Assembly: GCF_004114375.1 (NCBI RefSeq)
Contig: NZ_CP034692.1
Span: 186,001 to 250,000 of the forward strand
Direction of reading: 5' to 3'
DNA: 64,000 bases
DNA from: Halorubrum sp. BOL3-1
GTDB taxonomy: Archaea; Halobacteriota; Halobacteria; Halobacteriales; Haloferacaceae
A model generated the notes under the pieces. It saw only the letters and a program-made list of their open reading frames with translations, was not told where the DNA came from and ran no database searches. Position numbers and translations under genes: made by a program. Positions 4,097-32,995 of this stretch are shown piece by piece; the first letter of the stretch is position 1; every line of letters begins with the position of its first letter.

Positions 4097-4111
4097 AAAT
4101 CGATAATTGCG

Positions 4112-4442
4112 GCGGCGCGCGCCTGCGAGCGGTCGCCATCGGCGACCGCGAAGCAGCGCCGCGCGAGGGCGTCAGTCGCCGGAGCGGAGCGGAGGCGACT
4201 GACGAGGCTGGGGAGGTGTGAGGCTTTGCGGTGCGGGGTGGGACTCGAAGGGGCAGCCGGGAGGTGGGCGCAGGCGACGGCAGGACCGCAGGAGCGAACG
4301 CAGTGAGCGACGAGGACCGCACCGAGCGTGCGCCCTCCTCCCGGCTGGGGCTTCGGTAGTTTCCGTGTCGATCGAACATTTATAAATAGGTACGTACAGC
4401 CGATCGGCTGGGGTTTCGGCGGTGTCCGTCCCAGCGTCGACC
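4112..4442 (+). repeat. Dispersed structured intergenic repeat, copy A
   Basis: First of four related copies. Stem 1 pairs GCGGTCGCC (4129-4137) with GGCGACCGC (4141-4149). Stem 2 pairs GTCAGTCGCC (4171-4180) with GGCGACTGAC (4194-4203). A conserved core from GAGGCTGGGG to GGGACTCGAAGGGGC follows (about 4204-4253). Stem 3 pairs 4254-4272 with 4329-4347, 18 of 19 positions. Two closing modules follow: GGCTGGGGCTTCGG at 4343 and GGCTGGGGTTTCGG at 4406, exactly 63 bases apart, with a TTTATAAA patch between. It fills the gap between moaA and tRNA-Arg, which converge. Long frames crossing it look like composition artefacts. Whether it is an RNA gene, a mobile element or a regulatory structure is unknown. 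Confidence 0.75.
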
Positions 4443-17324: not shown

Positions 17325-17715
17325 GGTGGCGCGTGCCTCCGAGGCCGCATCGCGGCCGAGGAGCACGCGCGAGGGAGTTGGCCGCGACGAGGGCGACCGG
17401 AGGGAGCCCGACGGACGCGGCCGACGAGGCTGTGGAGGCGTGAGGCGCTGTGCGGAGCTGTGCGGGGCGGGACTCGAAGGGGCAGCCGCGAGGCGGGCGC
17501 AGGCGACGTAAGCACCGCAACGAGGGAGCGAACGGAGTGAGCGACCGAGTGAGGAGCGCAGCGAGCGTGCGCCCGCCTCGCGGCTGGGGCTTCGGCAGTG
17601 TCCGTGTCGCTCAGCGATTGATAAGTGAAAACGTACGGCCGAGCGGCTGGGGCTTCGGCGGTCGTGTCCTCGGAAGCGGTCGCGTCGTAGTAAGTGGCTG
17701 GGACTTCGGCAGACC
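17325..17715 (+). repeat. Dispersed structured intergenic repeat, copy B (longest)
   Basis: Outer stem GCGCGTGC (17329-17336) pairs with GCACGCGC (17363-17370), enclosing GGCCGC (17343-17348) with GCGGCC (17352-17357). A second stem uses GGCCGCG/CGCGGCC. The conserved core runs through GGGACTCGAAGGGGC (about 17469-17483). Stem 3, 17483-17501 with 17568-17586, is a perfect 19-bp inverted repeat. Three closing modules follow: GGCTGGGGCTTCGG at 17582, again at 17645 (63 bases on), and GGCTGGGACTTCGG at 17696. The copy fills the gap between the convergent thiolase and thiL genes. Compared with copy A, paired bases differ on both sides of the stems so that pairing is kept. Confidence 0.78.
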
Positions 17716-25499: not shown

Positions 25500-25830
25500 G
25501 TCCCGACCGCGAGGCGATACGTAGCTGTCTCTTATAGATCGCCGATCGACACGGACACCGCCGAAGCCCCAGCCGCGAGGCGGGCGCACGCTCGCTGCGT
25601 TCGCTCCCGCGGTGCTTGCCTCGCCTGCGCCCGCCTCGCGGCTGCCCCTTCGAACCCCGCCCCGCACAGCCCCGCACCTCACGCCTTCCCAGCCTCGTCG
25701 CTGGCGGCCGTCGCTTCGCTCGGCCGCCGGCGACAGCGTGGCGCGACGCGCCACGGGCAGCCGGACGTAGTCCGGCGACCTCGCGCGTGCTCCTCGCGCC
25801 CTACGGGGCGCTCGGAGGCACGCGCCACCG
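25500..25830 (-). repeat. Dispersed structured intergenic repeat, copy C (minus strand)
   Basis: Same family as copies A, B and D, reversed. Read on the minus strand: outer stem GCGCGTGC (25825-25818) with GCACGCGC (25790-25783), enclosing GCGCCC (25811-25806) with GGGCGC (25801-25796). An enlarged second region with several own hairpins follows, then the conserved core with GGGGTTCGAAGGGGC. Stem 3, a perfect 19-bp inverted repeat (25644-25626 with 25588-25570), has a loop of only 37 bases. One clear closing module GGCTGGGGCTTCGG (25574-25561) is followed by a degenerate second one. It lies between two leftward genes. Confidence 0.76.
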
Positions 25831-32829: not shown

Positions 32830-32849
32830 TCGGGCTCGCCCCGTAGTCG

Positions 32850-32995
32850 GCGCGCGCCTCCGAGCGGTCGCCTTGGCGGCCGCGAGGAGCGCCGCGCGAG
32901 GGACGCCGCTCGCGCTCCGCGCTCGCGGCGAGGCTGGGGAGCCGTGAGGTGCGGCGCGGGGCTGTTCCGGCTGGGGCTTCGGTGGTCGTATCGAT
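32850..32995 (+). repeat. Dispersed structured intergenic repeat, copy D (shortened)
   Basis: The shortest copy, about 146 bases. Stem 1 is GCGGTCGCC (32864-32872) with GGCGGCCGC (32875-32883), nine pairs including one G-T, which forms a G-U wobble only in RNA or a weak DNA pair. A second stem uses CGCCGC/GCGGCG. The core GAGGCTGGGGAG, CGTGAGGTGCGG follows, but the CTCGAAGGGGC part and both arms of stem 3 are absent, and the core joins directly to one closing module, GGCTGGGGCTTCGG at 32969-32982. It lies between the convergent DUF5518 and peroxiredoxin genes. Confidence 0.7.

Follow-up and report, generated by a model that had tools for sequence, protein, structure and literature searches.

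A dispersed chromosomal element of haloarchaea with a conserved, strand-specific fold and a core shared with plasmids

Structured RNAs that are tied to mobile elements, such as HEARO and the TnpB-type guide RNAs, sometimes occur in many stand-alone copies, and bacterial genomes harbor the REP/BIME sequences, which form families of many dispersed intergenic palindromic copies and belong with RAYT. The closest described counterparts in haloarchaea are the PATEs, palindrome-associated transposable elements of Haloquadratum walsbyi, which the parts of the report drawn on here describe as non-coding, palindrome-rich and heterogeneous repeats that are too short to code, have neither terminal repeats nor target duplications, and take up smaller palindromic repeats (SMR-A) in their palindromes (Dyall-Smith et al. 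2011, PMC3119063). The element that we describe below has all of these properties. A literature search for a named haloarchaeal repeat or RNA with its layout returned nothing relevant but the PATE paper, and a search of the window against Rfam gave a single tRNA at curated cut-offs and no relevant match at relaxed thresholds. This is in agreement with the first-pass annotation, which knew of no named haloarchaeal RNA or element of this kind. We are thus dealing with a high-copy, order-wide structured element that is absent from the family libraries searched and for which no describing paper was found.

The window is the whole 64-kb stretch of DNA that was analysed (G000:C3:186001-250000), and it belongs to a Halorubrum genome of 3.67 Mb in four contigs. 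The first-pass annotation had claimed four copies of the element in it, and all of them are present, three on the + strand (A, B and D) and one on the - strand (C; Table 1). The innermost stem sequences are as claimed for A to D, including the G·T wobble in D, and so is the 19-bp stem, with all 19 pairs formed in B and C and 18/19 in A. Other details had to be revised. Where A and B differ at two inner pairs, both had been taken as compensatory; this holds for one of them (C-G to G-C), but at the other A has its T·T mismatch. Of the four copies, D has kept the 5' domain and lacks the entire 3' core. The "closing GGCTGGGGCTTCGG" exists, but it is actually the 3' strand of a stem, CGAAG/CTTCG, that spans a GGG/GGG internal loop. 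Copies A and B have additional tail copies 3' of the core.

Table 1. Coordinates of the element copies in the window and examples of the related plasmid region.
Feature	Coordinates	Strand	Remarks
Copy A, 5' domain and 3' core	4111..4356	+	R1 match G000:C3:190240-190354, 114 bits
Copy A, 3' core: CGAAG/CTTCG closing stem, GGG/GGG loop, P4, tandem-GA P5	4240..4356	+	P4 18/19 paired
Copy A, tail with TTTATAA and second GGCTGGGGTTTCGG	4357..4442	+	Comparable tail unit common to many copies
Copy B, 5' domain, J motif GAGGCTGTGGAGGCGTGAGG, 3' core	17325..17595	+	RNA fold z -8.2
Copy B, 5' domain: P1 = GCGCGTGC/GCACGCGC, then P2 hairpin, P3	within 17325..17595	+	
Copy B, 3' core: perfect 19-bp P4, tandem-GA P5	17469..17595	+	R1 match 114.7 bits
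Copy B, tail: 2 more GGCTGGG(G/A)CTTCGG units	17596..17715	+	
Copy C, 5' domain and core, P5 apex shortened	25561..25829	-	R1 match 69.9 bits
Copy C, foreign palindrome pair inside P3	25729..25781, boundaries approximate	-	
Copy D, 5' domain and J motif; 3' core deleted, remnant GGCTGGGGCTTCGG alone	32849..32982	+	
Plasmid region, example	L385:3501-4059		
Plasmid region, example	L390:868-1425	-	
Plasmid region, example	L418:3001-3397 = pNRC200 315197-315593		

The number of copies was another matter. With copy B as query, BLAST gave 40 scoring sites, none of them outside the 3.37-Mb contig C3, and R1, a covariance model of the 3' core with 118 positions that was built from 47 cores, gave 87 matches at E<=0.001 in the same genome (R1 E-values being rough), about 70 of them strong and again all on C3. 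Hence, what had been described as a four-copy element has about 70 copies on the chromosome according to BLAST and the covariance model, and the original observation is confirmed as real, if understated.

The element is about 300 bases long, non-coding and intergenic. Its 5' end, at GGTGGCGCG, is preceded by (T)GC, with G and C at positions -2 and -1 in 95% of cases, and AT-rich DNA, frequently TTTATAA, lies 8-18 bp upstream. We considered TTTATAA as a promoter of the element itself and rejected this, because it is centred near -14 rather than -27 from the element's first base. The 5' domain consists of P1, a clamp in which GCGCGYGC is paired with GCRCGCGC, followed by the hairpins P2 and P3, and a conserved G-rich joint, GAGGCTGGGGAGGCGTGAGG, stands between this domain and the 3' core. 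The core begins with a closing stem (CGAAG/CTTCG, 4-5 bp) and a GGG/GGG internal loop that is invariant (47/47 and 46/47 cores), and continues with P4, a long stem whose sequence is free, followed by YAAGCACCGCA / GAGGAGCGCAGCG, a quasi-symmetric motif that is near-invariant, and by P5, which is made of 2-bp steps parted by tandem G·A mismatches and carries a short cap. Since CTTCG covaries with CGAAG as a stem, a reading of GCTTCGG as a UUCG tetraloop was dismissed. The sequence GGTGGCGCGTGCCTG in the element has what we take to be a resemblance to the 5' end of human 7SL; an SRP RNA or Alu-like origin was nevertheless discarded, as Rfam gave no SRP match and the pairing differs.

The two strands of the core motif are nearly alike (RAGSASCGCA), for example at 17505-17564 of the window, and this quasi-two-fold symmetry could reflect a site for a dimeric protein or a means of RNA dimerisation. 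The tandem G·A helix is unusual, and it occurs together with the invariant G-tract loop in cells whose potassium is molar, a condition under which these G-tracts could fold into a G-quadruplex. After the core, many Halorubrum copies continue into a tail that contains TTTATAA and additional GGCTGGGGCTTCGG units, and in 75 of 177 copies a second unit lies within 90 bases. Some elements also have flanking tandem arrays, in which short units of about 25-60 bp each contain TTATAAA or TTTATAA and may or may not include GGCTGGGGCTTCGG, as seen in the flanks of L014 and L016 and at loci L058, L063, L068 and L077 of G034.

The first-pass annotation had further proposed that the fold is under selection. 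Four palindromic copies alone are insufficient to establish this, because an appearance of compensation can arise from palindrome repair or from the exchange of entire hairpins, and stems are indeed swapped among the copies. In the alignment of 47 cores, 91.7% of cells are paired, and 281 cells are double-changed as compared to 77 in shuffles. Among 112 later R1 matches in named genomes, 93.6% of cells are paired and 695 are double-changed versus 176 in the shuffled set, though this alignment was fitted to R1 and may include loci of genomes that were used for training, such that it is not fully independent. None of 500 shuffles reached the observed covariation in either alignment, so that the strong covariation that had been anticipated is seen on later sequences as well, and sliding the partner columns of the 112-match alignment by 1-3 positions lowered pairing to 28-46%. 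The closing pair takes four forms across genera (CG/CG, CA/TG, GG/CC and GA/TC). The G·A loops of P5 are conserved in 40-45 of the 47 cores, and the pairs between them vary freely (AT 22 / GC 22, or CG/TA/GC). For the 5' domain, the partners in P1 are T with A in 62 informative copies, T·G in 8 and C with G in 24; the arms of P3 pair at 9.2 of 10 positions versus 7.3 when shuffled between copies, and the difference is smaller for P2 (5.3 vs 4.7 of 6). In some orthologs, P2, P3 or the P5 apex has been swapped for unrelated palindromes, which implies that none of the stems is required at all loci.

At well-aligned pairs, G·U was counted 125 times and A·C 28 times, an excess that identifies the + strand as the one that folds. 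Palindrome repair is an unlikely cause of the pairing, since the G·A loops are kept between changing pairs and G·U prevails over A·C; decay would not predict nearly invariant mismatches of this kind either. The same two observations, near-invariant mismatches between covarying pairs and the wobble asymmetry, bear out the proposal of selection for a fold, and this fold is conserved and specific to the + strand as written. In our reading, the folded strand is more likely to be RNA than single-stranded DNA (ssDNA), a form with which the fold would be compatible too.

Copies had also been expected in related genomes, where they were to be sought with a covariance model, and both BLAST and R1 found them there. 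By BLAST, the element occurs in all 34 congeners of the relatives sample. R1 at E<=1e-7 detected it in 85 of 146 genomes of the order (up to 25 matches counted per genome), which represent 36 of 56 genera, and in a sample of 100 genomes from the phylum there were matches in 13 of the 15 haloarchaeal genomes and none in genomes outside the order. Named hosts include Halorubrum, Haloparvum, Halobaculum, Halonotius, Haloglomus and Haloarcula. The other three contigs of the Halorubrum genome (294 kb) carry no copy, the probability of this by chance being 0.002 at 72 copies, and all copies in three further multi-contig genomes (G016, G019 and G140) are on contig 1, among the matches listed. On plasmids the full element is a rarity, with 6 weak records out of 72,556, and it was absent from the phages searched. 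Two long stretches of the chromosome are free of the element, at about 846-1042 kb and 2.86-3.31 Mb of G000:C3, and the former is rich in TnpB genes and resembles a genomic island.

Among genomes with one to four core matches, several of the single cores are located on plasmids, where they end a conserved non-coding region. A search with this region retrieved 157-160 haloarchaeal plasmid records (PLSDB). The region is structured, about 450-560 bp long and non-coding, and its 3' end is the core, the best-conserved portion of the chromosomal element, which is recognisable in most of 35 checked loci. At all 35 of these loci, which carry a gene for an OB-fold protein, that gene adjoins the region divergently. 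Double changes were found in 15 of 74 predicted pairs of the region, including GC/UA/CG at one pair, and an Rfam search with it gave no match. The protein, which annotations list as DNA-binding or as an OB-fold protein, has about 290-400 amino acids and a weak C-terminal OB-fold match. Its gene is present in 88 of the 146 genomes of the order, but the protein was not found in the Halorubrum genome at E<=1e-15. Hence, the chromosomal family is independent of this protein, which for the same reason was rejected as a universal partner of the element. Several of these plasmids are typed "MPF_T". This typing, together with an Ssb-like gene that adjoins a strand-specifically folded stretch, brings to mind the leading regions of conjugative plasmids in bacteria, which we regard as a lead only. 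The plasmid region may be a new large plasmid RNA, or else a region resembling a single-strand origin or promoter.

With respect to the age of the copies, the locus of copy C (downstream of the gene beside it) is occupied in 19 of 30 Halorubrum species, and that of copy B in 12 of 30, mainly close relatives; some of the empty orthologous sites are clear internal deletions. The best pair of full copies within the genome is 89.4% identical, with a median of 75%. Orthologs are not more alike than paralogs even though the neighbouring genes are 90-93% identical, and thus the interiors of the element turn over fast under a constraint on shape, which may occur through stem exchange among copies or through fast compensated change. 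For the orthologs of locus C (L110-L139), the divergence is above what would be expected from the roughly 90% identity of the neighbouring genes, and the shape is constant. Small paired-hairpin modules, for example GTCGCCGGCGGC..GCCGCCGGC with GAGGCGCG..CGCGCCTC, are recurrently inserted at identical sites inside the element, and a second type of module has the layout TTCGA-hairpin-TCATCACGA-hairpin-GACGACA. Such modules are present at 25729-25781 (-) of the window and at L010, L004, L007, L084, L119, L123 and L078, span different species as well as one other family, and resemble SMR-A repeats or double-hairpin elements.

The first-pass annotation had named identity with a MITE or IS end as a finding that would speak against a structured RNA, and no match to either was found. 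Comparison of the first 14 bases with the reverse-complemented 3' flank gave no terminal inverted repeat (best mean match 5.7/14), and no k-mer of 4-8 bases was repeated across the element above shuffled controls, a fixed 3' end being assumed, so that there is no sign of a target-site duplication. A DDE-type MITE was rejected for lack of both features. None of the copies examined is a gene-bearing, autonomous version.

The explanation that we favor, and to which we give about an even chance, is that of a dispersed, chromosome-resident non-coding family whose + strand acts in single-stranded, folded form, and this form would most probably be an RNA with a length of about 270-330 nt. A haloarchaeal protein that binds nucleic acids would recognise its core as a handle, and this core also ends the larger structured region beside the OB-fold gene on plasmids. 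The chromosomal copies would have spread long ago and would now be inherited vertically, with stems that turn over under a constraint on shape, and they would represent a domesticated or parasitic descendant of a larger RNA. What speaks against this explanation is that there is no promoter at the usual distance from the start of the element, that P2, P3 and the P5 apex have been swapped in some orthologs, that the fold would suit ssDNA too, and that the plasmid OB-fold protein, not found in the Halorubrum genome, cannot be the general partner. Its strongest rival, in our opinion an unlikely one, is a non-autonomous mobile element that is copied as folded ssDNA, like PATEs and REPs, and moved in trans by an HUH (Y1) transposase, with the fold being kept because the transposase reads it. 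A strand-specific fold is in line with such an element, as are the absence of terminal inverted repeats and target duplications and the conserved TGC at the 5' junction with AT-rich DNA 8-18 bp upstream, and foreign palindromes insert into its palindromes in the way that the source on PATEs reports for SMR-A (PMC3119063). However, Y1 is absent from 7 of 29 congeners in which copy numbers are still high, and an element lies near only 1 of 60 TnpA/TnpB loci, which is why an IS200/IS605 partner is not supported. Mobility of this kind is also at odds with the lack of the element in the TnpB-rich stretch at 0.85-1.04 Mb, with its near absence in full form from plasmids and phages, and with the divergence of the copies, no two of which are more than 90% identical or have an identical tract of more than 53 bp in common within the genome.

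An improbable alternative is a landmark in double-stranded DNA, either a cruciform or a protein-binding site, that serves the organisation, replication or segregation of the chromosome. The long palindromes and the confinement to the chromosome, in the Halorubrum genome and, among the matches listed, in the other multi-contig genomes, would agree with this, but selection acts on one strand, as seen from the G·A mismatches and the excess of G·U over A·C, the succession of strands from copy to copy is random (35 runs, against an expected 36.8), and the largest copy-free gap on the chromosome measures 450 kb (P by chance 0.002). The exchange of whole stems between loci and the fact that orthologs are no more alike than paralogs could be taken to mean that this is a dead repeat with no current function, in which template switching and hairpin exchange, and not selection, keep the arms complementary. 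We hold this to be quite improbable, since palindrome repair would erase the G·A mismatches, and yet these are almost invariant across families; the wobble asymmetry and the near-invariant unpaired motifs, kept across about 10 families, argue against it as well. Finally, an intergenic location and a stable fold would suit a cis-acting mRNA element, be it a riboswitch, a terminator or a 3'-end stabiliser of neighbouring genes, but this is very improbable and largely refuted by orientation, as all four flanking-gene arrangements occur (17, 10, 9 and 9; gene calls approximate) and none is preferred.

Returning to the favored explanation of a folded family that is probably RNA, the core of this family links the chromosomal repeats to a conserved two-part module, an OB-fold gene and a large folded region, on about 160 haloarchaeal plasmids. 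It is possible, though we put this forward tentatively, that the two belong to a new order-wide RNA class with two forms, a large plasmid RNA with an OB-fold protein dedicated to it and a multicopy chromosomal form that shares only the 3' core. If this were true, dozens of chromosomal loci per genome would produce or mimic the handle of the plasmid ribonucleoprotein, as effectors, decoys or domesticated descendants. One plasmid with the module is pNRC200, from the model organism Halobacterium salinarum NRC-1, in which its expression and function are directly testable; the region there lies in the gap at 315,085-315,786 that separates the OB-fold gene VNG_RS11940 from the tnpB gene.

Among the known systems, PATEs differ from the element in that their palindromes match IS605 ends and that they have strain-specific insertions, whereas no IS605 association was found for the element and its copies are old and diverged (one genome per species compared); the element also has an internal core that covaries and contains tandem G·A helices, and none appears for PATEs in the parts of their description drawn on here (PMC3119063). 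REPs are 20-40 bp long and GTAG/CGTC-tagged, whereas the element has about 300 bp and several domains, and RAYT is a Y1 transposase, an enzyme missing from 7 of 29 congeners that are full of element copies. From HEARO and the TnpB-type guide RNAs, the element is set apart by its proximity to only 1 of 60 TnpB/TnpA loci and the absence of an Rfam match. Its plasmid relative resembles GOLLD, ROOL and OLE, large ornate RNAs (cryo-EM, PMC12286853), in being a large structured non-coding region, but this region is without an Rfam match, adjoins an OB-fold gene, and has a chromosomal form that is multicopy.
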